Made by a program: the position numbers and the translations under genes. From Clostridia bacterium (GTDB lineage Bacteria > Bacillota > Peptococcia > DRI-13 > SM3-B62): a stretch of DNA of 64,000 bases. The notes below the pieces were generated by a model, which ran no database searches, was not told the DNA's origin, and worked only from the letters and a program-made list of their open reading frames with translations. Location: the NCBI GenBank assembly GCA_018433675.1, contig JAHDQS010000010.1:1-64000 (forward strand), in the 5' to 3' direction. Positions 8,078 to 44,562 of this stretch are shown here, one piece after another. Each line of letters begins with the position of its first letter. The stretch's first letter is position 1.

Positions 8078-8382
8078 GACAGAAAATTATAGCCCTGCCC
8101 AGGCTTAATAAGCTTTCCCCCACCATGGAATCCACGGCCTTAAAACTCATGGAAGAGGCCGGGGAATTGGCCCAGGCAATCGGGAAATACAGGGGATTGA
8201 ATGGGGAGCCTGTTGAGCGTGAGGAGTCTCAAGTAATTGAATGTATTGTCGATGAGCTCCTGGATGTGGCTCAGACTGCCGTTTCCATGATGTTTGTGCT
8301 GGAGGAGCAGTACCGGGTAGATATTGAAGACGCCGTTTGTCGGCACGTGGAAAAGTTGAAGAATAAAGGGTATTTGGCATGA
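8074..8382 (+). CDS. MazG-like nucleotide pyrophosphohydrolase
   Basis: 102 residues from the GTG at 8074, preceded by AGGGAGGAG and overlapping the comEB stop. The all-alpha MazG fold is indicated by [16 protein letters not shown] and [15 protein letters not shown], which carry the paired acidic residues that bind magnesium. Such enzymes remove pyrophosphate from non-canonical or excess NTPs; the exact substrate cannot be read. Its end overlaps the start of wecB (ATGATG), giving a three-gene overlapping chain comEB-MazG-wecB. Confidence 0.82.
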
Positions 8383-9536
8383 TGGTTGAGAAAAAGAACG
8401 TACTCACAATATTTGGGACGAGACCTGAGGCTATTAAAATGGCGCCACTGGTGCTGGCACTGCGGGAAGATCCCCGGATCAACTGCCGGGTTGCCGTTAC
8501 CGCCCAGCATCGTGAGATGTTGGATCAGGTCTTGGAGCTGTTTGGCATAGTCCCGGATTACGATTTGGATATCATGAGGGCGGGGCAAACGCTGCACGAT
8601 ATCACTTCCCGGGCCCTGCTGGGGCTGCGGGATGTTCTGTGGAAGGACAAGCCTGACATGGTTCTTGTTCATGGTGATACCACCACCACATTTGTGGGAG
8701 CCCTGGCCGCCTATTATCAGCAAATAGAGGTTGGTCACGTTGAAGCGGGACTGCGCTCAGGCGATAAATATTCTCCTTTCCCCGAGGAAATGAACAGGCG
8801 TTTGGCTGGGATGCTTGGTGATTTGCATTTTTCCCCGACCATGTCTTCCCGAGAGAACCTGTTGCGGGAAGGAAGAGAAGAAGAAAAAATTTTCGTTACC
8901 GGAAATACGGTGATAGATGCTCTTCTTAAAGCGGTACAAGCCGATTATATTTTTCAGGAAGAGGCCTTAAACAGGTTGGATTTTGACCGCAAAAGGATTA
9001 TTGTTGTGACAACCCATCGTCGCGAGAATTTAGGCGAAGCCATGCGGCAAATGTACCTGGCAATGAAAGACATTGTCCGGGAGTTTTCTGATGTTGAACT
9101 GGTCTTTCCGGTCCATAAGAATCCGGCGGTAAGGAAGGTTGCCTCAGAGGTGCTGGGTGATAGTGAACGGGTGAGCCTGGTTGAGCCCCTTGATTATGAA
9201 CCCTTTGCGAACCTGATGAGCAAGTCTCATCTTATTCTTACCGATTCCGGCGGTCTGCAGGAAGAGGCGCCTGCCCTGGGGAAACCGGTGCTTGTACTGA
9301 GAGAAAATACAGAACGCCCTGAGGCGGTCGAGGCCGGAACCGTGAAACTGGTGGGAACAAAAAGGGAGGACGTTTACAGAGCGACCCATGAACTTTTGCG
9401 GGATGAGAGTAAATACCTGGCGATGGCACAGGCCGTGAATCCGTACGGCGACGGTCACGCCAGTGAACGAATAGTTCAGGCCCTCTACTATCATTGGGGA
9501 TGGAAAGAGGACAAACCACTGCCATTTATTCCTTAA
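8379..9536 (+). CDS. wecB: UDP-N-acetylglucosamine 2-epimerase, non-hydrolysing
   Basis: It converts UDP-GlcNAc to UDP-ManNAc, the donor for the linkage unit of wall teichoic or secondary wall polymers (MnaA in Bacillus). 385 residues with the two-domain GT-B-like fold: TIFGTRPEAIKMAPL at the start, VHGDTTTTF, HVEAGLRSGD, TTHRRENLG, and TDSGGLQEEAP near the C-terminus. ATG 8379 and ATG 8382 are both possible. It supplies the sugar for the TagA-type enzyme at 27764. A large palindrome after it probably ends the operon. Confidence 0.95.
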   Translation: MMVEKKNVLTIFGTRPEAIKMAPLVLALREDPRINCRVAVTAQHREMLDQVLELFGIVPDYDLDIMRAGQTLHDITSRALLGLRDVLWKDKPDMVLVHGDTTTTFVGALAAYYQQIEVGHVEAGLRSGDKYSPFPEEMNRRLAGMLGDLHFSPTMSSRENLLREGREEEKIFVTGNTVIDALLKAVQADYIFQEEALNRLDFDRKRIIVVTTHRRENLGEAMRQMYLAMKDIVREFSDVELVFPVHKNPAVRKVASEVLGDSERVSLVEPLDYEPFANLMSKSHLILTDSGGLQEEAPALGKPVLVLRENTERPEAVEAGTVKLVGTKREDVYRATHELLRDESKYLAMAQAVNPYGDGHASERIVQALYYHWGWKEDKPLPFIP

Positions 9537-14681: not shown

Positions 14682-15779
14682 ATGCCTAACACTGAACAGG
14701 AATTGCTAATCAAAAAAACATTCGGCTGTGTAAGATTTGTCTACAATCAAATGCTGGCAGAAAAAAAAGAGCAATATGAAAAATATCGAAGAGATAAAGA
14801 AGCCATAAAAAAGCTAAAAACACCAACCCCTGCAAAGTATAAAAAAGAATATCCATGGCTCAAAGAAGTGGATAGCCTGGCTTTGGCAAACGCCCAGCTA
14901 AACCTGAATACAGCTTACAGAAACTTCTTCCGTGATAAGAAAATCGGCTTTCCAAAATTCAAAAGTAAGCGCCATGACAAAAAATCCTACACCACCAACA
15001 ACCAAAGAGGAACAATCCGGCTTATTAATAGTAAGACGATTCGACTACCTAAGCTAAAGAATGTACGAATTAAGCTGCATAGACAACTACCACACGATGC
15101 TGTCATAAAATCAGCCACCATAAGTCAAACACCTACAGGGAAATATTATATCTCCATACTGGTCGAAAATGATGCCAAAATCACACCGAGAACAGCAAAA
15201 CCTGAAACAACACTGGGTTTGGACTACTCCTCGAAATCGCTATATATAGATAGCGAAGGAAACAGCGCTCAATACCCCCGCTATTATCGACAAGCAGAAG
15301 CAAAACTAAAGAAAGCCCAACGTAAATTATCCAAACGCAAAAAGGGTAGCAAAAATCGTGAAAAGCAACGACAAAAAGTAGCGAAACTCCATGAGAAAGT
15401 TGCCAATCAACGAAAGGACTTCTTGCATAAGCTCTCCAGGCAGATAACCAACGCCTATGATGCAGTTGCAATAGAAAACCTAAATATGCGGGGTATGGCG
15501 CAAGGCCTAAAACTGGCCAAATCAACAAACGACAATGGCTTTGGAATGTTGAAAACATTTTTGGCCTACAAACTGGCAGAACAAGGTAAAAAGCTGGTTA
15601 CCATAGATAAATGGTATCCATCCAGTAAGCTTTGCCGCTTTTGTAAGCAGGAAAACAAAGAATTGACTTTGGCAGATAGAAATTGGACTTGTAGTCATTG
15701 TGGAGCAGAATTAGATCGCGACATAAACGCTGCCATCAATATCAAAAACGAAGGCTGCCGGATACTTGGTATAGCCTAA
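14682..15779 (+). CDS. tnpB: TnpB RNA-guided nuclease
   Basis: 365 residues with a complete RuvC core: D181 in LGLDYSSK, E265 in VAIENLNM and D347 in LDRDINAAINI, plus a zinc ribbon C318, C321, C337, C340. TnpB proteins cut DNA under guidance of an RNA from the element's right end and promote its retention. In the same frame, codons before ATG 14682 read NKAYKYRL, the usual TnpB N-terminus, but no start codon opens them (stop at 14643-14645), so about nine residues seem lost unless an unusual start is used. Nuclease residues are intact. Confidence 0.92.
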   Translation: MPNTEQELLIKKTFGCVRFVYNQMLAEKKEQYEKYRRDKEAIKKLKTPTPAKYKKEYPWLKEVDSLALANAQLNLNTAYRNFFRDKKIGFPKFKSKRHDKKSYTTNNQRGTIRLINSKTIRLPKLKNVRIKLHRQLPHDAVIKSATISQTPTGKYYISILVENDAKITPRTAKPETTLGLDYSSKSLYIDSEGNSAQYPRYYRQAEAKLKKAQRKLSKRKKGSKNREKQRQKVAKLHEKVANQRKDFLHKLSRQITNAYDAVAIENLNMRGMAQGLKLAKSTNDNGFGMLKTFLAYKLAEQGKKLVTIDKWYPSSKLCRFCKQENKELTLADRNWTCSHCGAELDRDINAAINIKNEGCRILGIA

Positions 15780-25165: not shown

Positions 25166-25756
25166 ATGCTTAATGGACCCAAGAAGCTCAAAACAGCCAC
25201 TGTAGTGTTTGTGATTCTTTTTTTTACGGCTTTTTCTCTCAAGGCCTATGAGCAGTTGATGACTAAGTCCTTCTTCGACAACTGGCTGCGGCTGGAGACC
25301 TCTTCTGTGGAGCAGAAGATTGCTGACCTTAAGAGGGATTTCTCCGAGATGGAAAAGACGCTTAAAGAGATGCAAAGTACTTTATTCACCGAGGTAAAAA
25401 TAATAATCGGGCGTAAAAGTGCGTGGCTTGACGGGAAGGAAACCGCGTTGGACGTGGCTCCCGTAATCAAAAACGACAGGACCATGGTTCCCGTCCGTTT
25501 TATCGGAGAACTCTTCGGAGCTTCCTTCGAGTGGGATAACGAAGCGAGAAAGGTCTCCTTTACCCTGGATGGTACCAATATTGAATTATATATTGATAGA
25601 AAAAACGCTACAGTGAATAACAAAACCATAGAGCTTGATACCGCACCGGTCATCGTTGATGGCCGTACCCTCGTACCTTTGAGGTTTGTAGGGGAACAAA
25701 TGCAGGCCTCTTTTACTTGGGACGGTGAGCAACGAGCCGTTACCATCTTTCGTTAG
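25166..25756 (+). CDS. membrane-anchored copper amine oxidase N-domain protein
   Basis: 196 residues: an N-terminal membrane segment (TVVFVILFFTAFSLKAY), a short coiled coil (VEQKIADLKRDFSEMEKTLKEMQ) and a CuAO_N1 domain with two repeats, NDRTMVPVRFIGELFGASFEWD and DGRTLVPLRFVGEQMQASFTWD. In clostridia this domain is a common surface module, thought to attach proteins to the envelope; it is not a copper enzyme by itself. It lies upstream of LCP and teichoic-type genes, in line with a wall role. Confidence 0.85.
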   Translation: MLNGPKKLKTATVVFVILFFTAFSLKAYEQLMTKSFFDNWLRLETSSVEQKIADLKRDFSEMEKTLKEMQSTLFTEVKIIIGRKSAWLDGKETALDVAPVIKNDRTMVPVRFIGELFGASFEWDNEARKVSFTLDGTNIELYIDRKNATVNNKTIELDTAPVIVDGRTLVPLRFVGEQMQASFTWDGEQRAVTIFR

Positions 25757-25798: not shown

Positions 25799-25824
25799 AT
25801 ATGCAGGTCGGAAGGGTGATGGGA

Positions 25825-26712
25825 ATGAATAAATCAAAACTGACAATAATTGCTCTTTTTTTATTGATAGTCGTCGGGGTGGGATACTTTGCCTACGACG
25901 CATATTTTCAACTTGAGCCGCAAAAAGAAGAAGAAGAGGAAAAAATACTGGGCTATACCGAGGAGTCCCTTCTCTTTGATAAGTTTAATATCCTGATACT
26001 GGGCACCGACGGAAGGGCGGGAGTAAATTCCCGTACTGATACAATCATGCTGGCCTCTGTGGACGGCAAAAAAAAGGATGCCTTCCTTCTTTCCATACCC
26101 AGGGATACACGTGTCAAAGTCAAAGGAGGGTGGGATAAGATTAATGCCGCCTATGCTTACGGAGGAGTCGAACTGACGTTGGAAACCGTTTCCGATTTCC
26201 TCGACGTGAGGATAGACCGCTATGTAGTGGTGGACTTTACGAGTCTGGTTGAGCTGGTTGACGAAGTCGGCGGTATTGAAGTGGACGTTCCTCTGCGGAT
26301 GTATGTTCCGCTGGAAGGTATCGACCTGCAGCCGGGGCTTCAGTCTCTGGACGGTGAACAGGTTCTGGCCTACTCCCGTTTCCGCGGCACCAGCGAAGGC
26401 GATATCGGTAGAGCCAAACGCCAGCAGGAAGTCGTGTCCCTTCTCTTTGAAAAGCTGCTGAGTCCTTCCAATATAACGAGGGCACCGCAACTAATAGATA
26501 TTTTTCAAGAAAACGTAGAAACAGATCTGACCGTAAAAGAAATGGTCGCCTTGCTCCGTATTGCGCCTGCCGTGCAAGATAAAGGCATAGCCACACAGGT
26601 TGTGCCGGGGCAAAACAAAAAAATAGATGGTCTCTGGTACTGGGAACCCGACCTGGCGGAATTGGCCGGGCTTCTGTCCGCTTCTATCGCAGCGGTGGCA
26701 GACAGCCGCTAG
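25825..26712 (+). CDS. LytR-CpsA-Psr (LCP) family ligase
   Basis: 295 residues from ATG 25825 (AAGGGTG seven bases ahead; ATG 25819 is possible). A membrane anchor (LTIIALFLLIVVGVGYFAY) precedes the extracellular LCP domain with ILGTDGR, the phosphate-binding arginines in LSIPRDTRVKV, GGWDKINAAYAYGG and RAKRQQE. LCP enzymes transfer undecaprenyl-linked wall polymers to peptidoglycan. A second LCP gene follows 46 bases later and a TagA-type gene after it. Confidence 0.93.
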   Translation: MNKSKLTIIALFLLIVVGVGYFAYDAYFQLEPQKEEEEEKILGYTEESLLFDKFNILILGTDGRAGVNSRTDTIMLASVDGKKKDAFLLSIPRDTRVKVKGGWDKINAAYAYGGVELTLETVSDFLDVRIDRYVVVDFTSLVELVDEVGGIEVDVPLRMYVPLEGIDLQPGLQSLDGEQVLAYSRFRGTSEGDIGRAKRQQEVVSLLFEKLLSPSNITRAPQLIDIFQENVETDLTVKEMVALLRIAPAVQDKGIATQVVPGQNKKIDGLWYWEPDLAELAGLLSASIAAVADSR

Positions 26713-26758: not shown

Positions 26759-27706
26759 ATGGATTCCGAATCGAATGTAAACCTGCCGCGTCTGCAGCGA
26801 AAAAAAAGAAGCAACATCAAGCCGGCGGGAGTATGCCTATTATTGATATTTTTCCTTTTATGCGCTATGCTGGGGTTCATGGCGGCTCGCTGGCTTTATG
26901 ACCCCTTGGTGCCCACAGATAAAAAAAGCGATGATACCCAGGCAACTCATGCCTCCGACGACATCCTCAATGTTTTAATTTTAGGTGTGGACCAGCGGGA
27001 GAATGAGCCTGCCCGTGCCGATACAATCATCTTGGCATTCTTGAACCTGACCAAAAAGGAAGCGACACTCCTTTCGATCCCCCGGGATACCAGGGTCAAG
27101 ATTGCCCAAGAAGGAACCATGCGTAAGATTAATTACGCCCATGCCGTAGGAGGCGTGGATATGACGATTGCCACCGTGGAGAATTTCCTGGATGTTCCGG
27201 TTCATTACTACGTCGAGACGAATTTCAGTGGTTTTGAAAACGTTATTGACATCCTGGGAGGCGTGACTCTGAATGTGGAAGAGAGAATGTATTTTCCCGA
27301 AGAGGGTATTGATCTTTACGCCGGGCTACAGGTTCTCGAAGGGCATGATGCCCTTTCCTATGTCAGGTGGCGCGGTGACGGCAAGGGTGATATCGGCCGT
27401 ATCGCTCGGCAGCAGAAATTCGCCGGTGCCTTGCTGGATCAAGCAATCAGCTTATCTACCGTTTGGAAAGTGCCCGAGCTTTTGGCAGAAATGGATGAGC
27501 ATTTGAAAACAAATATGAGCTTGCAGAAGATGATTGCCCTGGCCAACAAGTTTAAGAACCTGGAAGAAGTTAAATTCGAAACCCACATGGTGCCGGGAGC
27601 CCCGGATGATGTTAATTACGGGGCAAGCTACTGGATAGCCGATGATAACGCACTGAAAGAATTATTGGAAGAGATCCATCAGGAAGAGAATAAACAGGAA
27701 GCATAA
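26759..27706 (+). CDS. second LytR-CpsA-Psr (LCP) family ligase
   Basis: 315 residues: cytoplasmic basic tail, membrane segment (AGVCLLLIFFLLCAMLGFMAA), and LCP domain with LILGVDQR, LLSIPRDTRVKI, KINYAHAVGG and GDIGRIARQQKF. It resembles the gene just upstream in order of motifs, so the two are tandem paralogues. GGAGGAG precedes ATG 26759. LCP paralogues often share substrates with partial redundancy. Confidence 0.93.
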   Translation: MDSESNVNLPRLQRKKRSNIKPAGVCLLLIFFLLCAMLGFMAARWLYDPLVPTDKKSDDTQATHASDDILNVLILGVDQRENEPARADTIILAFLNLTKKEATLLSIPRDTRVKIAQEGTMRKINYAHAVGGVDMTIATVENFLDVPVHYYVETNFSGFENVIDILGGVTLNVEERMYFPEEGIDLYAGLQVLEGHDALSYVRWRGDGKGDIGRIARQQKFAGALLDQAISLSTVWKVPELLAEMDEHLKTNMSLQKMIALANKFKNLEEVKFETHMVPGAPDDVNYGASYWIADDNALKELLEEIHQEENKQEA

Positions 27707-27763: not shown

Positions 27764-28501
27764 ATGAAAATAGAGACGGTTTCCGTTTTAGGTGTCAAGG
27801 TGGCACGGATGTCTTTACAGCAAGTCGTAGAGTGGATCCGGGTCATGGTCGAACAGGGAAAACCCCGGCATATCGTAACCGCTAATGCCGAGGTGATTTA
27901 CAAAGCCCATGTTGAACCGGAGTATCTTGAACTCCTGCAAAAGTCCGACCTGGTAACAGCGGACGGTTCCGGCGTGGTCCTGGCAGCAAACATGCTGGGT
28001 CAGCCCGTTCCCGAAAGGGTAGCGGGTATAGATCTGGTTGCGGAAGTGTTTGAACTGGCCGCGGAAAAAAACTGGAGCATCTATTTTCTAGGTGCGGAAC
28101 CTAATGTGGTGGAGAAAGCCGTTTTGCATACCCTGGAGAAGTATCCGAACTTGCAGATCAAGGGTTATCGCGACGGCTATTATTCCCAGGAGGAAACAGA
28201 ACAGGTAGTGGCGAATATCAATAAACAGAAACCGGATATCTTGCTGGTGGCGTTGGGAGTACCCAAGCAAGAGGTTTTCATCCAGCAGTATCTCAAGGAA
28301 CTGGATGTTCCCTTATCCATCGGCGTAGGAGGCTCCTTTGATATTTTGGCCGGTACGGCTACCAGAGCACCTGCCTGGATGCAAAGGGTAGGCCTGGAAT
28401 GGTTCTACCGCCTGCTCAAAGAACCACGGCGCTTCAAACGAATGCTGTCCTTGCCCAAGTTCGTCTTAGCCGTACTCAAGCAAAAGTTAACAAGAAAATA
28501 A
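27764..28501 (+). CDS. tagA: WecG/TagA/CpsF family glycosyltransferase
   Basis: 245 residues. Motifs: IVTANAEVIYKA, TADGSGVVLA, FLGAEPNVVEKA, LLVALGVPKQEVF and GVGGSFDILAGTATRAPAWMQR, all typical of GT26. TagA adds ManNAc from UDP-ManNAc to undecaprenyl-PP-GlcNAc, the second step of the wall polymer linkage unit. UDP-ManNAc would come from WecB (8379) and the lipid acceptor from the TagO-like enzyme (43495). The adjacent LCP genes complete the attachment route. Confidence 0.93.
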   Translation: MKIETVSVLGVKVARMSLQQVVEWIRVMVEQGKPRHIVTANAEVIYKAHVEPEYLELLQKSDLVTADGSGVVLAANMLGQPVPERVAGIDLVAEVFELAAEKNWSIYFLGAEPNVVEKAVLHTLEKYPNLQIKGYRDGYYSQEETEQVVANINKQKPDILLVALGVPKQEVFIQQYLKELDVPLSIGVGGSFDILAGTATRAPAWMQRVGLEWFYRLLKEPRRFKRMLSLPKFVLAVLKQKLTRK

Positions 28502-28695
28502 CGTTCTAAGCAGCTTGACAATACATATAATAGAACGATGAAGACAGGAAAACCGCCAACTTCATGACGAGGCCCTGGTTTTCGAATATTTAGATATATT
28601 TGCAGGAATTTGACATCGAGTGGCGAATGTACTATATTTACAGGGCGTTGTAGCCCTTGTCGGAAGCGGTCTCCTTGATACTTCCAATTTTATTG

Positions 28696-28723
28696 TTGAC
28701 TTGAAGTGCTTCTGTGATATAAT
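28696..28723 (+). promoter_or_regulatory. strong promoter of the S-layer-like gene
   Basis: TTGACT (28696-28701) and TATAAT (28718-28723), 16-base spacer, with a TG one base before the -10 (extended -10). It leaves a transcribed leader of about 280 bases. Between 28502 and 28690 I see no gene. Confidence 0.75.
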
Positions 28724-28729
28724 GTGTTG

Positions 28730-29009
28730 TAGTGCTTGCCCTGCCGTCTTGGCATAAGGCTTGCATAAAGATAAAAACAAAATCTTTGGATTTAGGTTAA
28801 TTGCTGACCACCTTTGAAAGGGGGGATACGGCCACAGAGAGCTGGTATAGACTACATAGGTGAGTATGAAAAGGTTCCCGAAAATGCCTCCGCCAAGCAA
28901 AAGCTTACGGTAGGACGGCAGGAACCAAGCCGGAAAAAATTTACCGGCGAGACCGTCCATCAAGGATGGAGGGTTCAGAACCTTTAAAACTTTAAGGAGG
29001 GATATAGTT
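28730..29009 (+). ncRNA. long structured 5' leader of the S-layer-like gene
   Basis: Several stems can form: GGTTCC/GGAACC (28873-28878 with 28921-28926) enclosing TGCC/GGCA and AAGC-AAAA-GCTT (28895-28906); GCCGG/CCGGC (28929-28948); TCCATC/GATGGA (28956-28970); then CCTTTAAA/TTTAAGG up to the ribosome site. It could stabilise a highly expressed mRNA or act as a riboswitch. No known class matches convincingly. Confidence 0.5.
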
Positions 29010-31592
29010 TTGAAATCTAAAAAATTATTTGCCGTCATGACATTAGTAATGTTCATGATGACTCTGCTTCCCCTGGCTGCTTTTGGCACATCGGTAACAG
29101 CTTTTTCTGTTGCTAATGTTACTGCTGGAACCAAAAACGTTGTAGTAACTGGTACAACTAACGCAGCCATCGGTGCAGGTGGATCAATAACACTTACGTT
29201 ACCTACAGGATTTACCGCTACACCACAAACAACAGCACTTGCTCTTAACGGTGTTGGTTCTACGATTACTGCAGGTGCAGGACTTGTAGCTGCAACCGAC
29301 ACCTATACAGCAACCGCAAATACAATTACCATTACTTCCGTCGCCGGCATTGGCGCTGGTGCGGCTTATGGTTTCACTGTTGCTTGTGCTACTGCACCTA
29401 CAACAGCTGGAACTTATGCGGCTTCCTTGGTTACTTCTGGTGACGTTGATGCTGCAGCAGCAAACATTACTGTTGTAGCTGACGATGCTTCTTTGGCAGC
29501 TTCCAAAATCAGCGTTAATTCCACTTCCAAGTCTGCAGATGGATCATCCGCCGTTACTGCAACTGTGGTACTTCGCGACAGATTTAACAACTTAACAACA
29601 TCTCTCGGCGCAGGCAATAGCTTGTATGTTTGGGGAGAAAGAACTGCCAAGGTTGCTTCCGATGCGGAAATCCTTACTGGACCGTTTAAAGCTGATGGAA
29701 CTACCGCGATCCTTATAGGTTCTGCTGCTACAAATTACAAAGAGATAACAGCAGTTGAAATGACAGCAGCAACCAGTAATACTGCGAAAGTTAAATTCGC
29801 TTCGAATGTCGCGGGTGATGTAAATATTAAGGCGGCTATTCATGGAGCTGGTGTTGTGATTACTACTGTAGCTCCTGCCGATGGCAATAAAATCGGCTCA
29901 GCTCCTACTAAGTTCACTCCTCTTGGCGTTGGAAGCATCACCCCAACTGTTCCTGCCGGCCCATTTGCCGCAGACGGAACTGAATATGAAATCACCTTCA
30001 CAGTAAAAGATTCTGCTGGCAACCCCTTAGCCGGTGAAGTTGTTCAGTTCAGTGTTAACAAGAGCGGTGCTATGCTGAGCAAGACCGAAGCTACCACTGA
30101 CATCTTAGGTGAAGTAAAAGTTAAGGTTTCTGCCAACAAAGCTGATACTTATATTGTGACAGCTCTAGACGGCAGCATCACAAACAACTCAGGCAATATG
30201 ATTTTCGGTGCCAGCGGCACTGCCTTTGACATTGTTGCTCCGGCAGCAATAGCAGACAAAGTTGCCGTTAATACTGCTCCTAACTTTGATTTCAAAGTAT
30301 ATGACATTTATGGCAACCAATTCCAACAGGCTGGACTTACTGCACTGCTAGCCGGCGGAAGTGCTCCCACAGCTTCTTTTATAACCAAACCTGCCGGAGC
30401 ATCCGTTTCCGACAGTGACCTGAAGTTTGAAGCCAGAACCAATAACACCTTACGCGTTAAGTTCGACAAAAAGCCTGATAAGTTAGGCACTTACACAATT
30501 AAGGTGAAATTGGCAAACGGCAAGTCTGCAACATCTACCTTTGACGTTGCAACCCAAGGTGCTATCGTGAGAATGACTCTTAGCTACAGCGAAGATCTGT
30601 TGGCTTGGGGATCAACTTCCGGTACACCTTCAGTCAAGTACTATGATGCCAATGATGTATACTACTCTGCGGTAAGTGGCTTACCTGGCATTACAATTTC
30701 TGTTAACAATGCCAACTTGGCGTCTGTATCCGGAAACACGATTAAAGCCGCTCTTGGTTCTGCCAGCAACTATCAGACTGGTGAAGTAGTTATCACTGCA
30801 GTTGATGTCAACCGTAACTTGGTCGCTACTGATACCATGAGCATTGGTTCCACAGTAGCAACCTTATCAGCTGAAGATGTTGCCGGTGAAGTAGGTCAAA
30901 CTGCTACTATTACACTCCAGATCAAAGACCAAGACGGCAAGAACGGTGCTCTTGATTCTACCGGTGGCGCTGTCAGCGTTGATGTGTATGCAGTAAGCAA
31001 GCCTGCCGGTGCAACTGTAAGCTACGATCTGCCTGCACAAGTAGACTACCAGAAGTCTCTTACCAGAACCGGTAAAGTAGACCTCAAGGTAGGTTCTGAC
31101 AAAGCTGGTGAAGTTGTCTATACAGTAATCGTAACCCAAGGTACAGTAACCGTTTCTAAGACTGTAAAAGCCACTTTTGGTGCTACAACAGCTGCCATTG
31201 GTGCAAAATCAGTAACTCTCTTCATCGGTGCAAGCGGTTATGTTCAAGATGGTGTTGCTAAGGTTACCGATTTAGCTCCTTTCATCAAGGATAGCCGCAC
31301 CTTTGTAGCAGTTCGTCCTATCGCTGATGCTTTCGGTGCCGAAATCGGCTGGAACGAAGCTACCCAGACTGTAACACTTACCCGTGAAGACATGACTCTG
31401 ACCATCGTAATTGGCTCCAATGTCATTACGAAGGTTGCTGACGGCGTAACAACTACGTCCGAAGCCGATGTTGCCGCCTTTATCCAGGACGGTCGTACAG
31501 TACTGCCTTTCCGGGCTATTGGTGAAGCTTTCGGCGCAACCGTAGAATATGATGCTACAACTCAAGCTGTTAGTTTTACACAAGCTAAGTAA
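29010..31592 (+). CDS. probable S-layer protein with C-terminal CuAO_N1 domains
   Basis: 860 residues from TTG 29010, seven bases or so after AAGGAGG. Signal peptide (KLFAVMTLVMFMMTLLPLAAFG), then about 700 residues rich in Ala, Thr, Ser and Val with beta-sandwich-like segments such as KDSAGNPLAGEVVQFSVNKSG (Big-1-like), and from about residue 735 two CuAO_N1 repeats (DSRTFVAVRPIADAFGAEIGW; DGRTVLPFRAIGEAFGATVEY). There is no SLH motif; the CuAO part may be the wall anchor. Composition, strong promoter, long leader, strong terminator and biased codon choice (GCT, GTT, ACT rather than the G/C-ending codons nearby) fit a very abundant surface protein. Confidence 0.75.
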   Translation: MKSKKLFAVMTLVMFMMTLLPLAAFGTSVTAFSVANVTAGTKNVVVTGTTNAAIGAGGSITLTLPTGFTATPQTTALALNGVGSTITAGAGLVAATDTYTATANTITITSVAGIGAGAAYGFTVACATAPTTAGTYAASLVTSGDVDAAAANITVVADDASLAASKISVNSTSKSADGSSAVTATVVLRDRFNNLTTSLGAGNSLYVWGERTAKVASDAEILTGPFKADGTTAILIGSAATNYKEITAVEMTAATSNTAKVKFASNVAGDVNIKAAIHGAGVVITTVAPADGNKIGSAPTKFTPLGVGSITPTVPAGPFAADGTEYEITFTVKDSAGNPLAGEVVQFSVNKSGAMLSKTEATTDILGEVKVKVSANKADTYIVTALDGSITNNSGNMIFGASGTAFDIVAPAAIADKVAVNTAPNFDFKVYDIYGNQFQQAGLTALLAGGSAPTASFITKPAGASVSDSDLKFEARTNNTLRVKFDKKPDKLGTYTIKVKLANGKSATSTFDVATQGAIVRMTLSYSEDLLAWGSTSGTPSVKYYDANDVYYSAVSGLPGITISVNNANLASVSGNTIKAALGSASNYQTGEVVITAVDVNRNLVATDTMSIGSTVATLSAEDVAGEVGQTATITLQIKDQDGKNGALDSTGGAVSVDVYAVSKPAGATVSYDLPAQVDYQKSLTRTGKVDLKVGSDKAGEVVYTVIVTQGTVTVSKTVKATFGATTAAIGAKSVTLFIGASGYVQDGVAKVTDLAPFIKDSRTFVAVRPIADAFGAEIGWNEATQTVTLTREDMTLTIVIGSNVITKVADGVTTTSEADVAAFIQDGRTVLPFRAIGEAFGATVEYDATTQAVSFTQAK

Positions 31593-31603
31593 ATTAAAAG
31601 AAT

Positions 31604-31645
31604 AAATTAAAAGTCCTGTCGGTAATCCGGCAGGACTTTTAATTT
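31604..31645 (+). terminator. strong terminator after the S-layer-like gene
   Basis: A 19-bp stem (31604-31622 with 31627-31645) with one wobble and a TAAT loop; the right arm ends in CTTTTAATTT. Confidence 0.85.
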
Positions 31646-31707
31646 ACAAGGAGTATGAGAATAGTATATAATTGCAGCAGAGATATATATTTTAAGAGGT
31701 GGTTTCT

Positions 31708-33135
31708 GTGTTGTTGAGACTTAGAAATGTAATGTTTGCTGTTATCATGATAATGGGTATGGCTGCTTCGAATGTGTTGGCATCTGAAAAACCGGTTAAT
31801 TTTGTTTACAATGGACAGTATTCAAATTCGAAATTGCATCTGCAAGAGGATAGTAATATTACTTATATTCCATTGCGCACTACTTTTGAGATGATGGGCT
31901 ATCGTATTGTATGGGATAATATAACCCGCGAAATTACTTTAGTAAGTCCAAGAAAAAAGGACATATATCGTTATCTATTGACCAAAGATGTCTTGGTTAA
32001 GAGTGATGGCGAAGCCATAAATATGAATTGCAAAATTATTAATGGATCTACATATCTAAATGTAAATGCTCTACATAATTTTGGAATAGGCTATGCTATT
32101 GAGAAAATGAAGGATGGAAACACCTATTTTTATATAACGCTGCCGGAAGATACAAAGTTGTTTTCAGGTGAAGTGAAATATGGAATGAAAGATTATCAAG
32201 ATAAAAACAATGAACTGGTACTTGCTGAACGGTACGATTATGCCGTAGATGCGGAACAGGGTTTGCTCCAATATCGTAAGCAAGAAGAAGAGATTATCGT
32301 AGATATATTAAACAAGGATATTCGAAAGAACATAACCAATATCCATGTGGATAAGAATAGGATAGTCCAAAACATAAGAAGTGAATGGATACCGGGTTTT
32401 ATCATGACTATTGGCAGAAGCTCGATTGAGGAAAACAACCTCGGCCCTACTAAGGATGTAAGTGATGTGGCAAGCAGTTCATCCAGCTTTTGGGGAGAGA
32501 TATTAATAAAAAGATCTTTTGACGAAACAACAGAATATACAATTGATTCTAAGCTGGCAAAGGTAACAGACGGTATTTTTAGAAGTGAAAAGGCCTACAT
32601 GCTTAGTTCTGATGCTATTGAACTCAATGAAAGAGATAAATGGGCGATAAGTGAAAACGGTAGGCAAATATTTATTGTAAAAGATCAGGTAATTACAGTA
32701 GATGCTTATGGAGAAATCAAGGAAATAAAGCGCGAAACAGATATCAAGCCTCTTTGTACATATTACGATAACGTTAACAAGGAACTAGTAGTATTGTATT
32801 CATCTTTCAAAGCTGACAAAGTTGATATGTATTTAAGCAGAAGTAGCGATAATGGCAGTTTCGGTATTAGGCCAGGGTATATAGACAGCTTCATCAGCAA
32901 CTATTATGGAAACCCCAGTGCCAAAGTACTATTCACTTATAATAAAAAGCTGTATGGTATCTTTAATAATGGCGTTTCGCAATATATTTTCAGATTTGAC
33001 AAAGAAACAAATTCTATGGTTTTTGAGTGTTTACCGGATTGGTTGGAAGAAGGTTATATTGCTCAAGGGCATGATGGGATTTATTATGTTTGGAGTGGCG
33101 GGGAAAAGGTATTCTATTGCAAATTAAATATATGA
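31708..33135 (+). CDS. secreted protein with N-terminal CuAO_N1 domain
   Basis: 475 residues from GTG 31708, preceded by AAGAGGTGG. Signal peptide (MFAVIMIMGMAASNVLA), then a CuAO_N1 repeat (ITYIPLRTTFEMMGYRIVWDNITREITLV). The remaining 350 residues contain recurrent short beta segments with Tyr/Asp-rich turns, perhaps a propeller, but no recognised domain. Lower GC than neighbouring genes suggests a different history. It shares the surface module with the two CuAO_N1 proteins upstream. Confidence 0.7.
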   Translation: MLLRLRNVMFAVIMIMGMAASNVLASEKPVNFVYNGQYSNSKLHLQEDSNITYIPLRTTFEMMGYRIVWDNITREITLVSPRKKDIYRYLLTKDVLVKSDGEAINMNCKIINGSTYLNVNALHNFGIGYAIEKMKDGNTYFYITLPEDTKLFSGEVKYGMKDYQDKNNELVLAERYDYAVDAEQGLLQYRKQEEEIIVDILNKDIRKNITNIHVDKNRIVQNIRSEWIPGFIMTIGRSSIEENNLGPTKDVSDVASSSSSFWGEILIKRSFDETTEYTIDSKLAKVTDGIFRSEKAYMLSSDAIELNERDKWAISENGRQIFIVKDQVITVDAYGEIKEIKRETDIKPLCTYYDNVNKELVVLYSSFKADKVDMYLSRSSDNGSFGIRPGYIDSFISNYYGNPSAKVLFTYNKKLYGIFNNGVSQYIFRFDKETNSMVFECLPDWLEEGYIAQGHDGIYYVWSGGEKVFYCKLNI

Positions 33136-33214: not shown

Positions 33215-34300
33215 ATGAGAAGAAACATAGTATTTATTATGGTATTGTTTTTAATGATCGTCACTATAACTCCAGTATCCGCAGAAAGTTTAGATTCAGG
33301 GAAGGTATCGTTACAAGCTGCTATAGAACTTGCAAAACAGAATTCTAGTCAGGCAAAGCAAGCTGAATGGAGTGTATCATTAGCCAGTTATAATGCAAAT
33401 ATAGCTCATAATGCACTTATTGACGCTTTGTATAGTAGAGTATATACAGTAGAAAGTCTTACTTCTATACGCAAGACTGCTGATTCTAGCAAGTCTGCAT
33501 ATGAGAGAGCTCAAGAATCACTGGCAGGGCAAATCGAAACAATTGGATACACTATGGGTAGCCTCTATTTGAGCACTACTCTCCTGGAAAAACAGGTTGA
33601 ATTGTCGCGGGAAGCTGTAGCTCTTAATGAGAAGGCATTGGAGATTGAAAAGATTAAGCAGAGTTTAGGAATGTCAACTCAACTGAGTATCGCAGGAAAG
33701 GAAATGGCCCTTTTAAACTCCAAAAAAGAACTGCAGTCCTGTATAAATCAGGTGAGCTTTAATAAAAGAACTATAAATAGCCTGATAGGGCGCGATATAG
33801 ACGCACCTCTTGTTTTAACGGAGTCAATTATTGTTGACAAGGGGGAACCCAAACCCTGGACAGAGGTTGTTAAATTAGCCCTTGCGAAAAACGTGGATCT
33901 AAAACATAAAGAAATTGCCATAAATGATCGAATTTCAGATCGAAAGGATACAGATGGCGCCAGTAATACTTTTGAAATTGCCGACATAAATTTACAGTCG
34001 GCTCAACTGGCTTTAGAAGACGCAATAGTCACCTTAAGAAAGGATGTTAAAGATATTTATGATAAATTAAATATTGATAGAGTAGCTTTACAAGAAAAAA
34101 ATATGAGTTACCAAGTTAGTTATAGAGACTTCTTACATGCCAAAACAAAGCATAATCTAGGGCTGATTTCGGATATGGAGTTAAAGAATGCAAGCATTCT
34201 CTTTCTTACAAAAGAAGTTGAACTGAAATCTGCCAAGAATGCATATTTCTTGTCAAAAACTGCTTATGAACTTGTTGAGCAGGGCATTATACTTAACTAA
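33215..34300 (+). CDS. TolC-family-like exported coiled-coil protein
   Basis: 361 residues: signal peptide (FIMVLFLMIVTITPVSA), then SLQAAIELAKQNSSQAKQAE and long heptad-rich helices, with a second half starting WTEVVKLALAKNVDLKHKEIAI; the two-fold arrangement and AIELA/VVKLALAKN openings are typical of outer-membrane efflux proteins. TolC-like proteins also occur in monoderm Firmicutes, where their role is unclear. The TetR-type operator shared with the HlyD-RND operon suggests this is its third component. ATG 33215 follows a weak GGATAGAG. Confidence 0.75.
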   Translation: MRRNIVFIMVLFLMIVTITPVSAESLDSGKVSLQAAIELAKQNSSQAKQAEWSVSLASYNANIAHNALIDALYSRVYTVESLTSIRKTADSSKSAYERAQESLAGQIETIGYTMGSLYLSTTLLEKQVELSREAVALNEKALEIEKIKQSLGMSTQLSIAGKEMALLNSKKELQSCINQVSFNKRTINSLIGRDIDAPLVLTESIIVDKGEPKPWTEVVKLALAKNVDLKHKEIAINDRISDRKDTDGASNTFEIADINLQSAQLALEDAIVTLRKDVKDIYDKLNIDRVALQEKNMSYQVSYRDFLHAKTKHNLGLISDMELKNASILFLTKEVELKSAKNAYFLSKTAYELVEQGIILN

Positions 34301-34385: not shown

Positions 34386-34433
34386 CACCTCGATTCTGGT
34401 ATTATATTAATCAGAATCGAGGTGAGTTTTTTT
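34386..34433 (+). terminator. terminator that overlaps the promoter and ribosome site of the next gene
   Basis: CACCTCGATTCTG (34386-34398) and CAGAATCGAGGTG (34412-34424) are a perfect 13-bp stem followed by a run of seven T from 34427, ending the TolC-like transcript. The right arm contains the GAGGTGAG ribosome site of the next gene, and an extended -10 TGGTATTAT (34397-34405) spans the left arm and loop. Transcripts begun here would lack the left arm and leave the ribosome site free. Confidence 0.65.
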
Positions 34434-36306: not shown

Positions 36307-36320
36307 TTTGGAGGCTGAAG

Positions 36321-38225: not shown

Positions 38226-40178
38226 ATGGGTGGTTTAAAAGGTATAAGCGGCTTGAAAAAAGCGGCGGTGGTATTGATTATCCTCAGTATGGTGGTCTCC
38301 CTGGGTCTGGATTTTTTTCGGGTGCAGGCGGAGGGAGAATACAAAAACGTTCAGGTGCTTTTGGATTATGATGAGCTGAGGGATTTGGCCGCGGCCAACG
38401 GGTTGGCTGTAGAAGAGCTGGCTCTTCGTTTTAAAAAACAGGGTGCCACCGGGGTTATAATGCGGGAGCGAACCCTAGAGGATTTGGAAAAGTCGGGAGA
38501 TATCATGCTGGTAGGCGGAGGCGAGGCTCAAATCCTACAGGAGCTGGAGCCCTCGTTTTTGGGTGGAAATAAGCCAATCAAGGAAAACAGGTACATTGTG
38601 ACGAAAGATGAAAACGTCTATCAGGGCCTAATCCGTAGCTTGCAGGTGGATCCGGGAGATTATGCTTGCGGGGAGGAGGACGGCTATTACTGGCTGAGTA
38701 CCTTTGCATCGGAAAAGGACTTAATCAAGAAGGGTGTCGGGTTTTTGGCTCAAGACATTAAGCCCCTGGCTGAAGCCGGGCTCAGTGTTGTGCCCCGTAT
38801 CAGAAGCTACGGCAGTGTCTGTCTTGAAGAGGTGGAAGGGACTCTGGCCCTGTTTGAAAAATACGGGATGCCTCTGGTGACCTTCAATGACGAAGCGCTG
38901 CCCTGCTTGGGAGAAATCCCTGCTTTAGCCGAGAGGCTAAAAGAAGCCGGAGCCTATGTGGGTACCTTTGAATTCTTTGAACAGCAGGGGATGGCCTCCT
39001 TAGCCCTGCAGAATGGGAAGAATGTAGTCAGGATTCATTCCATCAGCGAAAACGAGATGCCGCAGTATTACGAGGAAAAGGCGCTGGAGCGGTTTAACCT
39101 GGCGGTGACGGAAAGGAACATCCGGGCTTTGTATGTGCGCTTTTTTGGCCTGGAGCAGCCGGAGGCTGCCTTAGAACGGAATTTGGATTTTGTGGGTAGC
39201 ATCAAAGCAGATCTGGCAGCCGAAGGATTTGCGCTAGGAGAAGGCGAAGGACCGAAGAGCCCGCCCTATTCCGTCGGGCTGATGCTTCTGATCGGTGTGG
39301 GAGTCATCGGGGGGCTTTTGCTGATGGGAGAGGCGGTGCTTCCGAAAAAACTGGTTTGGGCCGGAGGGATAGTCGCCCTAATCGGCTGGGGAGGTATGTT
39401 GTATCTTGCTCCGGTTCTGGCCCGGAAGGCCTTTGCTCTTTTGAGCGTCATCGTCTTTCCGGTCATCGGGATAACGGCTGTTGTCGGTCAGGAGGCCGGG
39501 GAGGAAAAGAAAGGTTTCAAACGTGCGGTGGTGCTGTTGTTGAAGATGTCCGAGATTAGTCTGGTGGGCGCCGTGATTATGACGGGGCTTTTGGCAGATA
39601 AGTCCTTTATGTTGAAGATTAACGGGTTCAGCGGGGTGAAACTGGCGCATTTACTGCCGCTTGTGGCGGTACCGGCATATTTGCTGTATGAGGGGGAAAG
39701 CGGAAGAGAAATATTTGCCAAGGTGAAAAAGCTTCTGCAAGACCCGGTTTTGATCGGACAGGTCGTGGGTGGCATGGTGCTTTTAGCGGCCCTGGGGATA
39801 TATCTTTTACGGACGGGGAATGACAGCGGGGTCTTGGTGACCTCCTGGGAGATGAAGATGAGAAGCCTGCTGGATCAAGTGCTGGGTGTAAGGCCCAGGA
39901 CAAAGGAGTTTTTGCTGGGGCACCCGGCTATGCTCTTGTTGTTGTATTACGGCTTTGATAAGCGGGACTTGAAGAAGGATGCTCTGTTATTGTTGGGCGT
40001 TATTGGGCAGGTTTCATTAGTCAATACTTATGCCCATATCCATACGCCCCTGTTAGTTTCGGCAGTTCGTTCTTTTCACGGGCTGTGGCTGGGGGTACTG
40101 TTGGGAGTGTGCGCCATAGCGGTTATTAACTTATGCTTACGATATCTGCACAATGCGGAGAGTGATGCCGGTGAGTAG
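38226..40178 (+). CDS. DUF5693 family polytopic membrane protein
   Basis: 650 residues. One membrane segment near residues 11-29, an extracellular or periplasmic-side domain to about 345 (with VVPRIRSYGSVCLEEVEGTL, resembling a polysaccharide deacetylase-like or TIM-barrel core), and about eight membrane segments from 350 to the end. DUF5693 genes typically precede csaB in Clostridia, as here, and are presumed to act in wall polymer or S-layer assembly; no activity is proven. The csaB start lies inside its last codons. Confidence 0.8.
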   Translation: MGGLKGISGLKKAAVVLIILSMVVSLGLDFFRVQAEGEYKNVQVLLDYDELRDLAAANGLAVEELALRFKKQGATGVIMRERTLEDLEKSGDIMLVGGGEAQILQELEPSFLGGNKPIKENRYIVTKDENVYQGLIRSLQVDPGDYACGEEDGYYWLSTFASEKDLIKKGVGFLAQDIKPLAEAGLSVVPRIRSYGSVCLEEVEGTLALFEKYGMPLVTFNDEALPCLGEIPALAERLKEAGAYVGTFEFFEQQGMASLALQNGKNVVRIHSISENEMPQYYEEKALERFNLAVTERNIRALYVRFFGLEQPEAALERNLDFVGSIKADLAAEGFALGEGEGPKSPPYSVGLMLLIGVGVIGGLLLMGEAVLPKKLVWAGGIVALIGWGGMLYLAPVLARKAFALLSVIVFPVIGITAVVGQEAGEEKKGFKRAVVLLLKMSEISLVGAVIMTGLLADKSFMLKINGFSGVKLAHLLPLVAVPAYLLYEGESGREIFAKVKKLLQDPVLIGQVVGGMVLLAALGIYLLRTGNDSGVLVTSWEMKMRSLLDQVLGVRPRTKEFLLGHPAMLLLLYYGFDKRDLKKDALLLLGVIGQVSLVNTYAHIHTPLLVSAVRSFHGLWLGVLLGVCAIAVINLCLRYLHNAESDAGE

Positions 40179-41292
40179 GGTAGTGATTTCAGGCTATTAC
40201 GGCTTTAACAATACGGGGGATGAAAACATCCTGTATGCAATCATCGGGGAGTTGCAAAAGGAAGTGCCGGGGGTGGAGATAACGGTGCTTTCTCATGATC
40301 CCCAGGGGACAGCGGCCAGATACGGGGTGAAGGCTGTTAACCGCTGGAATCCTGCGACTGTACTTGAAGCGTTGTTGCCGGCAGATTTATTCATCAGCGG
40401 CGGGGGTTCGTTGCTGCAGGATGTCAGCAGCAGGATTAGTCCTTTGTATTACCTGTCGGTGATTTTACTGGCCAGGCTGTTGAGAAAAGAAGTGTTGATT
40501 TATGCCCAGGGGATAGGACCTTTGAGAAAAGGGAGTACCCGGCGTATGACCGCTTTTGTTTTTAACCGGCTGCGCCATATTACGGTGCGGGATGAAGAGT
40601 CGAGACAGGAGCTATTATCCCTAGGGGTAGGGCAGGAAATTGCGGTGGCTGCCGATCCGGTCTTGGGCCTTTACGGCGGTGACTTTGAAGCCGTAATAGG
40701 CAAAAGAATACTGGAGAGAAACGGCGTGCAGGACGGTGAGGGAAAAAAGACGATTGGGGTCTTTATCCGTTCCTGGCGCGATAATGCCTTTCTGCCGGCT
40801 TTGGCAGAGGCTGGTGATTGTTTAGTGAAGCAGGGGTGCCGGGTGGTCTTTGTGCCGCTCCATTACCCTCATGATATGGGTATCGCTCAAGAGGCTGTCA
40901 AGCTAATGCGACAGGAGGCTTTTTGCCTGCAGGAAGGCTGTTTCCCCTGGGAGGTTCTTTCTTTGATGAAGAATTTCGATGTTGCGGTGGGGATGAGGCT
41001 CCACGCCCTGATTAACGGGGCGGTGGCAGGCATCCCTGTTGTCGGGATAAGCTATGACCCTAAGGTGGAGCGGTTTTTAGGGCAGATAGGGCAGCAGGCC
41101 TTGTCGGCAGATGGCCTTGATGCCGCCGATTTGACAGCGGTTGTTAACGAGGCGCTGGTAAGCGGTAGGGAGACGATGGAGGAGTTGCAAGATCGTTTAA
41201 CGGACTTGGCTGAAAAAGCTGTGCTGCCGGCGAAAGCGGCGGCGGAAATATTGCGTAAGAAAGAAGCTAAAAGGCATAAGGGATCTGAATGA
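40165..41292 (+). CDS. csaB: polysaccharide pyruvyl transferase CsaB
   Basis: 375 residues, MPVSRVVISGYYGFNNTGDEN, with DLFISGGGSLLQD, LIYAQGIGPL, RHITVRDEES, VAVGMRLHALINGAVAGIPV and GISYDPKVERFL, the complete set for CsaB. The enzyme adds pyruvate ketals to the secondary wall polymer, usually making the ligand for SLH-type S-layer anchors. No SLH protein is in this window, only CuAO_N1 ones. ATG 40165 is favoured by GGAG just ahead; GTG 40171 is possible. Overlap with DUF5693 implies coupled translation. Confidence 0.93.
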   Translation: MPVSRVVISGYYGFNNTGDENILYAIIGELQKEVPGVEITVLSHDPQGTAARYGVKAVNRWNPATVLEALLPADLFISGGGSLLQDVSSRISPLYYLSVILLARLLRKEVLIYAQGIGPLRKGSTRRMTAFVFNRLRHITVRDEESRQELLSLGVGQEIAVAADPVLGLYGGDFEAVIGKRILERNGVQDGEGKKTIGVFIRSWRDNAFLPALAEAGDCLVKQGCRVVFVPLHYPHDMGIAQEAVKLMRQEAFCLQEGCFPWEVLSLMKNFDVAVGMRLHALINGAVAGIPVVGISYDPKVERFLGQIGQQALSADGLDAADLTAVVNEALVSGRETMEELQDRLTDLAEKAVLPAKAAAEILRKKEAKRHKGSE

Positions 41293-43494: not shown

Positions 43495-44562
43495 GTGATA
43501 GAGACAGCCGTTCCTATACTGCTGGCCTTTGCTGTTGCCGTGTTTGGTACACCGCTGGTGAGGCAGCTTGCCATTAGAATAAAAGCTTTTGATAATCCTG
43601 AAGCCCGTAAGGTTCATAACTGTACGATGCCCTGTATGGGAGGGCTCGCTATCTGTTTGGCCTTTTGGGTGTCGGTTCTTTATGCTTTCCCTGTTTCCAA
43701 GGAATTGGGAGGTCTGCTGGTGGGTGGACTCTTGATTTGTCTCGTTGGCATAGTGGATGATTTGAGGGGGGTATCTCCTCGGATGAAGCTGGCCGTACAG
43801 GTAGTGGCGGCGTGTATTGTGGTAGCTGCCGGAATCAGGGTAGATTTTATGACTAATCCCATTGAGGGTGTCTTTAATCTCGGATATTTAAGCTATCCGG
43901 TGACTGTGCTATGGATTATTGGGGTCACTAATGCCGTGAATCTCATTGACGGTCTTGACGGTCTGGCCACGGGGGTATCTGCCATAGCGGCGCTAACCCT
44001 GGGCACGGTGGCGGCACTGGAAGGCTTTGGGCAGGCTGCGATGCTGTCCTTTATCTTGGCGGCCGGTGCTCTTGGTTTTCTGCGGTATAACTTTTATCCG
44101 GCTAAAATATTCATGGGGGATACCGGCTCTTTGTTTTTAGGGTTCAATCTGGCTGTTGTGGCTATCAGCGGACTGACAAAGAGCACGACGGTGATTTCGC
44201 TCTTTTTGCCGGTTATCATCTTAGGGATTCCGATATTTGATACTTTGTTTGCCATTGTACGGCGTTACCATAACAAAAAGCCTATTTTCTGCGCAGATAA
44301 GGAGCATCTGCACCATAGGCTTTTGGCATTGGGACTGACCCACAGGGGCGCGGTCCTGGCCATGTACGGCGTGAGTGCGTTGTTTGGCGTGTCGGCCGTT
44401 TTGATGGCCCTTGTTACCACGGCCCAAGGGATGTTGGTGATGGTCGCGGTTTCCTTAGGCATCTTTATAGCTGCCGAGAGGCTCGGCATCTTAAGGGGTA
44501 TTACCTGCAAAGAACCTTCCAAACACTATCATCAAGGGAGAGAGAAAAATGAAATATCGTAA
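43495..44562 (+). CDS. tagO: undecaprenyl-phosphate GlcNAc-1-phosphate transferase (TagO/WecA type)
   Basis: 355 residues with about ten membrane segments. Family motifs: VDDLRGVSPRMKL, NAVNLIDGLDGLATG, KIFMGDTGSLFLGF and KEHLHHRLLALGL. It starts wall polymer synthesis by transferring GlcNAc-1-P to undecaprenyl phosphate. With WecB and TagA in this window it would form the GlcNAc-ManNAc linkage unit. GTG 43495 follows AGGAGG. Its end overlaps the SH3 gene by 14 bases. Confidence 0.93.
   Translation: MIETAVPILLAFAVAVFGTPLVRQLAIRIKAFDNPEARKVHNCTMPCMGGLAICLAFWVSVLYAFPVSKELGGLLVGGLLICLVGIVDDLRGVSPRMKLAVQVVAACIVVAAGIRVDFMTNPIEGVFNLGYLSYPVTVLWIIGVTNAVNLIDGLDGLATGVSAIAALTLGTVAALEGFGQAAMLSFILAAGALGFLRYNFYPAKIFMGDTGSLFLGFNLAVVAISGLTKSTTVISLFLPVIILGIPIFDTLFAIVRRYHNKKPIFCADKEHLHHRLLALGLTHRGAVLAMYGVSALFGVSAVLMALVTTAQGMLVMVAVSLGIFIAAERLGILRGITCKEPSKHYHQGREKNEIS

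Follow-up and report, generated by a model that had tools for sequence, protein, structure and literature searches.

A candidate S-layer-type protein with a putative CuAO_N1 wall anchor, encoded behind a conserved leader in a clostridial wall-polymer locus

The first 64,000 nt of contig JAHDQS010000010.1 (the window), from Clostridia bacterium assembly GCA_018433675.1, carry three genes for proteins with the CuAO_N1 domain (PF07833), all scoring over the Pfam cut-off (Table 1). A first-pass annotation of this DNA had picked out the same three genes, placing the third at 31708, which is a later start in the 31699–33135 frame. As it had also reported, two LCP genes and a TagA/WecG glycosyltransferase gene lie between the first two of them, and csaB is present in the region. 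The second and largest of the three CuAO_N1 genes encodes the S-layer-like protein (SLP) considered here. This gene, at 29010, probably encodes the main S-layer-type protein of the clostridial lineage to which the host, an uncultured anaerobe, belongs, with CuAO_N1 as its putative wall anchor.

SLP is acidic and Ala/Thr-rich, with Ig-like domains and a single C-terminal CuAO_N1 domain. Its conserved N-terminus is signal-peptide-like, as judged from the appearance of the sequence without a signal-peptide program. If cleavage after 26 residues is assumed, the mature chain is 84 kDa, with an isoelectric point of 4.92, one cysteine, 15.6 % Ala and 13.8 % Thr. With the signal peptide judged and its cleavage assumed in this way, SLP has all four features sought in an S-layer protein, being large, secreted, low in cysteine and acidic. 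PF07833 matches residues 747–855 only, at 94.6 bits against a gathering score of 24.2. The first-pass annotation wrote of CuAO_N1 repeats; the family is present, but the plural was generous, since SLP has one domain made of two half-units. The model of this domain has the fold of the Escherichia coli amine oxidase N-terminal domain (1qak_A, Z 9.5, 2.1 Å over 77 residues; next unrelated fold 5.8). No SLH domain was detected in SLP, either as a PF00395 match at E≤0.001 or as the [IV][TS]RAE motif. The earlier description of an S-layer-type protein in size and composition, lacking SLH and lying beside wall-polymer genes, is thus upheld. In Foldseek searches with the full SLP model, ranks 1–4, 6 and 8 were the solved S-layer proteins SbsB, SbsC (three entries), Sap and EA1. 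An alignment profile of the SLP family found 'surface layer protein' chains 4uid (2.1e-5), 4uj7 (0.0033) and 5ftx (0.004), the last two being SbsC. The SLP sequence by itself gave nothing in the PDB at E≤1, and tblastn against a phage collection gave zero matches.

Approximately 220 nt upstream of the SLP start are strongly conserved among relatives. A covariance model (R1) was built from eight relatives, with the window left out, and recovers the window leader (Table 1). Within the class, 19 of the 46 genomes have an R1 match, always as a single copy. In all 18 of these with readable sequence the gene that follows is SLP, of which G018 and G033 show just the beginning; the G004 contig breaks off within the leader. 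Seventeen loci include both the leader and SLP and extend beyond them in either direction. The next upstream gene is TagA in 15 of these (the window and 14 others), the exceptions being G011 and G013, where SLP starts about 200 nt beyond the end of the R1 match with the same AGGAGGGA-TTG signal. The short CuAO_N1 envelope protein (CuAOshort) and LCP are present in 13 of the 15; of the other two, G005 is truncated at the edge of its contig, and G025 lacks a CuAOshort match.

R1 was also run over 348 genomes of the phylum, 15 of the class and 333 outside it, giving 17 matches: ten in the 15 and seven in the 333 (E 4e-8 to 6e-4 for the latter). One of the seven, in G083, lies outside the locus. 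In the other six, CuAOshort, one or two LCP genes, TagA and the leader are followed by a gene for a protein of 805–953 aa. All six proteins exceed the SLH cut-off, with SLH at the N-terminus, and none has a CuAO_N1 match at E≤0.001. The part of the leader common to both types of locus is the 5′ core (UUUAGGUUAAUUGC ... GAAAGGGGGGAU, with variations). CuAOshort is also common to both, by Pfam in three of three tested and by similarity in all six SLH-type loci. In a TagA tree of 24 rows, 17 CuAO-type rows are split from six SLH-type rows by one branch (96/94), with one label change observed versus 5.4–5.5 in shuffles; the type of G004, G018 and G033, in which the anchor end of SLP is cut off, was inferred from their class. 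Because this locus and leader core stand before an SLH protein elsewhere, and because TagA splits in this way, the predicted anchor type at this locus varies by lineage. The single branch between the types indicates that the putative anchor exchange is old and lineage-bound. No prior description of an SLH/CuAO_N1 exchange at one locus was found in the open-access literature, mostly represented by titles and the openings of abstracts.

Comparison with the same-genus genome G001 reveals a mosaic. CuAOshort, LCP1, LCP2 and TagA are 95–97 % identical; SLP is 39 % identical. Within SLP, identity is 89 % in the signal peptide, 29 % in residues 28–312, 31 % in residues 313–735 and 92 % in the CuAO domain. 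DNA matches (blastn) run through the leader to 29086, then cover only 31200–31582, and resume from about 34670. The 478-aa gene (31699) has no counterpart match in the G001 locus, and the OEP/TolC-like protein is only 22 % identical to its counterpart. In addition, the GC content at third codon positions (GC3) of the SLP, 478-aa and OEP genes is 0.31–0.35, versus about 0.54–0.6 for the flanking neighbours. Taken together, the segment identities, the blastn gaps, the missing 478-aa gene and the low GC3 look as if the exposed portion of SLP and the genes downstream of it had been swapped, the ends being retained. Among 14 aligned SLP homologues from 13 genomes, the CuAO domain is 50–92 % identical and residues 313–735 are 19–37 % identical. 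Such rapid divergence of the body suggests that its exposed region has been replaced repeatedly, as one would expect under pressure from phages or grazers.

The occurrence of an SLH protein behind the same locus and leader core elsewhere, and the conserved CuAO domain beside a variable body, make the idea that CuAO_N1 is an anchor much stronger. The domain would be a non-covalent wall anchor of SLP, doing what SLH does in other classes.

Upstream of the SLP gene there are two promoter-like sites (Table 1). Sigma-70-type boxes as such are not enriched in the scanned stretch (15, versus 14.4 expected from shuffles). In 14 of 15 loci, including the window, a TTGAC-16-TATAAT promoter recurs 236–380 nt upstream of the start codon, and this recurrence is better evidence than box scores in the window. 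The SLP start is preceded by the Shine–Dalgarno sequence AAGGAGGG; its codon is TTG at each of the 17 class loci examined (15 plus G011 and G013). The TTG start is found despite the presumed high expression of SLP; in SLH-type genes the start codon appears to be ATG or GTG. The codon adaptation index was rejected as a sign of high expression, because its range is too narrow (0.72–0.84 among the rows listed) to give support. The first-pass annotation spoke of expression signals in general terms; the conserved promoter, the Shine–Dalgarno sequence and the hairpin downstream of SLP are present, whereas codon adaptation does not mark high expression.

The leader (28790–29012) has a fold stability z of −3.18. 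Piecewise folds give hairpins P3, P4 and P5 in ten leaders; the eleventh (L073) lacks P3, and its full fold retains two later hairpins. A P1 pairing (AGGUU with AACCU) is present in the window's own fold and absent from the consensus. Covariation backs only P5, because P3 and P6 hardly vary. With the eight-row alignment, 500 shuffles all fall short of the observed value on each of five measures. With the ten-row alignment, which was fitted to the model, all fall short on four measures and a single shuffle reaches the value on the fifth; related sequences may score better than shuffles of this kind even if they have no structure. The leader would govern SLP translation, possibly through the hairpin covering the Shine–Dalgarno sequence; that this hairpin may be a translational switch is a guess.

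Searches for the leader by other means were also made. A short leader motif with up to two mismatches is found in 17 of the 46 class genomes. A reversed control also matches several, and leader counts are therefore taken from R1 alone. A leader pattern gave 12 matches in named genomes, seven with the Shine–Dalgarno/SLP start downstream, one at a contig end and four without. These four, in Mitsuaria, Mycolicibacterium, Flagellimonas and an unclassified metagenome-assembled genome, have no such start downstream and were taken as chance; one of them (L112) scores 24.8 bits with R1, though it was picked by the pattern. In Rfam 15, no family matches the window at its gathering score and none matches 28450–29060 at E≤1. 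On five leader loci, Rfam at E≤0.1 gave two matches, both in L144 and far under the cut-offs. One of these, HgcG on the leader of L144 (G003; L144:1501–1777, reverse strand), scores 27.3 versus 77 bits (E 0.0003). It was taken as chance because it is far below the cut-off and missing from the other four leader loci.

Table 1. Genes and features of the SLP locus and its surroundings in the window
Feature	Position	Strand	Remarks
UDP-GlcNAc 2-epimerase (ManNAc supply)	8379..9536	+	–
CuAOshort, short CuAO_N1 envelope protein	25166..25756	+	196 aa; PF07833 185 bits; usual locus member
LCP protein 1	25801..26712	+	Pfam
LCP protein 2	26759..27706	+	Pfam
TagA/WecG glycosyltransferase	27764..28501	+	Pfam
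Promoter-like site 1, TTGACA-17-TATATT	28610..28638	+	11/12 sigma-70-type score; consensus match only
Promoter TTGACT-16-TATAAT with TG extension	28696..28723	+	11/12 score; like site in 14/15 loci
Conserved leader RNA of SLP gene	28791..29012	+	R1 165 bits; match reaches into start codon
Leader hairpin P3	28873..28926	+	GGUUCC/GGAACC base, extended stem
Leader hairpin P5	28951..28975	+	Compensatory changes at 6/10 modelled pairs
Possible Shine–Dalgarno-masking hairpin (CCUU...AAGG) with Shine–Dalgarno AAGGAGGG	28981..29001	+	Near-invariant, beyond the reach of covariation
SLP, S-layer-like protein	29010..31592	+	860 aa; TTG start
Ig-like domains of SLP	29946..31181	+	Residues 313–724; Big_1; resemble S-layer proteins and invasin/intimin
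C-terminal CuAO_N1 domain of SLP, proposed anchor	31248..31574	+	Residues 747–855; model pLDDT 94.2
Inverted repeat, terminator-like	31603..31646	+	20 bp, 4-nt loop, fold −29.1 kcal/mol; not among terminator-scan results
Secreted protein with N-terminal CuAO_N1	31699..33135	+	478 aa; PF07833 39.9 bits, residues 37–127
OEP/TolC-like protein	33215..34300	+	Pfam; similar gene 3′ of SLP in many relatives
DUF5693 protein, csaB neighbour	38226..40178	+	–
CsaB polysaccharide pyruvyl transferase	40153..41292	+	NCBIfam equivalog, 281.4 bits vs cut-off 213.1; ~9 kb downstream of SLP
TagO/WecA-type GlcNAc-phosphate transferase	43495..44562	+	–

A murJ gene also lies within the 38–45 kb group, with those for DUF5693, CsaB and the TagO/WecA-like protein. 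A set of tagO, tagA, LCP, csaB and epimerase genes is that expected for a pyruvylated secondary wall polymer containing N-acetylmannosamine (ManNAc), as established in Paenibacillus and Bacillus. The wall glycopolymer made by this nearby set would be the receptor of SLP. Two adjacent FAD_oxidored proteins (34432–38201) separate the SLP cassette from csaB, and a homologue is found near csaB in genome G128 too. In Syntrophomonas wolfei and many relatives, too, the S-layer-like gene is followed by one for an OEP/TolC-like protein; the phylum of the host is usually regarded as being without an outer membrane. An IS605-type OrfB (TnpB-like) gene is present at 14682–15779.

The host genome (3.0 Mb, 58 contigs) contains 24 CuAO_N1 matches in 23 open frames and 13 SLH matches in seven, two of the latter frames being 1,359 and 1,506 aa long. 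The proposal that CuAO_N1 is used instead of SLH is therefore correct for SLP but not for the genome: given the seven SLH frames, CuAO_N1 is not a genome-wide substitute. It is the commoner surface module of the two in this genome, in which SLH is still present. Pfam scans covered 18 of the 23 CuAO_N1 frames, including the three of the window; the partners in the host include a trypsin-like protease, a glucosaminidase, two GH18 proteins, SH3, beta-helix and Ig domains. To our knowledge, PF07833 has no agreed function. In the accessible parts of the literature, it is described as a domain of wall hydrolases or is seen in a dimer interface. In L087 (4157–5902), a serpin combines an N-terminal signal-like segment with an SLH domain.

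Among 398 genomes of the phylum, CuAO_N1 is found in 334, SLH in 345 and both in 313 (our own count from the lists). The CsaB model matches in 338 at E≤0.001, of which 284 are over its cut-off. The co-occurrence lists were compared by eye, with CuAO_N1 counts taken from the best 11 or so scored matches per genome. Co-occurrence of CsaB with SLH or CuAO_N1 was set aside as a test, since it discriminates poorly when all three are so widespread. No SLH match was found in 53 of the 398 genomes. Of these, three carry five or more CuAO_N1 matches; each of the three also matches the CsaB model, over the curated cut-off in one case, G128. This genome is a single contig, rated 100 % complete. It has the order DUF5693-csaB-tagA-LCP-tagO, with a 1,116-aa CuAO_N1/transglutaminase protein encoded two genes past tagO. 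The SLH-less genomes with a CsaB match are consistent with CuAO_N1 using the CsaB product, but as weak evidence. The link is weak because a CsaB-like match is also present in three genomes of genus g170 (G284, G304 and G342) that lack SLH matches and have no more than one for CuAO_N1.

These counts bear on an alternative for the ligand, in which CuAO_N1 binds peptidoglycan or a non-pyruvylated polymer and csaB serves SLH proteins only. We put this at somewhat short of an even chance. CuAO_N1 and SLH usually occur together, and PF07833 is often found on wall hydrolases. The CsaB-model matches of the three SLH-less genomes rich in CuAO_N1 argue the other way, a point which is countered in turn by the g170 genomes.

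Several known systems may be compared with the locus. As in the SLH-anchored S-layers with pyruvylated secondary cell wall polymer of Bacillus anthracis and Paenibacillus alvei, the window has csaB, tagA, tagO-like, LCP and UDP-GlcNAc 2-epimerase genes, and SLP is modular, with body and anchor. The anchor candidate is a C-terminal CuAO_N1 domain, however, and not an SLH trimer. SbsC of Geobacillus stearothermophilus has an Ig-like body with remote sequence and fold similarity to SLP; its anchor region is presumably not CuAO_N1. In Clostridioides difficile, SlpA cassettes combine an exposed region that is hypervariable with a conserved one that binds the wall; they have CWB2 anchors and another gene order. 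SLP likewise has a variable exposed part and a conserved putative wall-binding part. The SLP leader is not claimed as new. It may belong to the SLH motif RNA, to which it is likened by description only. According to the accessible text on that riboswitch candidate, its members lie upstream of S-layer genes of Clostridia, Negativicutes and Synergistaceae; SLH genes follow in about 60 % of cases and genes without known function in the remainder (PMC6429828).

The S-layer idea for a CuAO_N1 protein is not wholly new. Swol_0133 of S. wolfei, in the portions of the paper available, is the most abundant membrane-fraction protein and a predicted S-layer protein, with a C-terminal IPR012854 as its sole conserved domain; a secretion signal was unpredicted for it and predicted for its orthologues (PMC3582634). 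In G059, an 812-aa open reading frame (ORF; L080:9588–12026), if started at an internal TTG (codon 72), yields a mass of 78,098 Da, identical to the figure published for Swol_0133. By this match, the ORF is likely to be Swol_0133 and the S. wolfei counterpart of SLP. The annotated start of Swol_0133 thus appears to be about 71 codons late, the true N-terminus likely being a signal peptide, which would explain the unpredicted signal. Like SLP, this protein is of the same size class and acidic, with a C-terminal CuAO_N1 (702–811) as its only Pfam domain and an OEP gene next to it. The csaB, murJ, tagO-like, LCP and CuAO_N1 genes are also present, but 13–18 kb upstream. Profile comparison aligns the CuAO domain only, and unlike SLP the gene has no R1 leader, no LCP gene directly upstream and, over the 40 kb examined, no match to TagA.

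Taken as a whole, the explanation that the gene at 29010 encodes the main S-layer-type protein of its lineage, with a putative CuAO_N1 anchor, has in our estimate a probability of about two in three. Several observations weigh against it. Any of the SLH proteins of the host could form a lattice. PF07833 need not be a specific polymer binder, as it is also present on protease, glucosaminidase, GH18 and SH3 proteins. R1 matches outside the class span just 44–92 nt, and 27 of the 46 class genomes have no R1 match. When profiles of the two protein types, CuAO and SLH, are compared, the signal peptide is all that they have in common, and thus the whole gene body differs, not the anchor alone. The codon adaptation of SLP is unremarkable (rank 47 of 183 ORFs). 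In the profile search that found S-layer chains, intimin comes first at 1.8e-10, and intimin/invasin equal or beat the S-layer proteins. The full SLP model is weak, with a mean predicted local distance difference test (pLDDT) of 63.4 and template modelling scores of 0.08–0.21 over the top eight Foldseek matches. Given this modest quality, and since Ig-like matches are common, the Foldseek and profile likenesses are support and not proof.

The Big_1, invasin and intimin matches and the codon adaptation of SLP, together with the two longest SLH proteins of the genome, would also suit a large Ig-like adhesin that forms no lattice, the S-layer being made by an SLH protein elsewhere. This appears unlikely, in view of the single dedicated leader conserved in each genome where it is present, the position of SLP orthologous to that of S-layer-sized SLH proteins, the best Foldseek matches and the abundance reported for Swol_0133 in the accessible part of PMC3582634. 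That CuAO_N1 is instead a subunit–subunit module for dimerization or lattice formation, with attachment by another route, finds a parallel in the superoxide dismutase of Paenibacillus lautus, whose homodimer is formed by an N-terminal domain classed as PF07833 (PMC10432803, as far as its available text goes), but is improbable, as conservation beside a hypervariable body and LCP/TagA genes better fits a fixed ligand and occurrence on hydrolases and proteases with unlike bodies argues for a shared receptor.

A wider proposal goes beyond a wall anchor for SLP. CuAO_N1 would be a second, SLH-independent receptor for the CsaB-pyruvylated polymer, SLH and CuAO_N1 proteins would have replaced one another at an ancestral locus with leader core and signal peptide kept, and the leader would be a wall-sensing switch on both. 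In this full form we consider it doubtful. A locus at which CuAO_N1 stands in for SLH would nevertheless give PF07833, a family present in most genomes of the phylum examined, a testable role as a wall anchor. The CuAO-type and SLH-type loci may serve as a matched natural pair for asking which ligand each anchor binds.

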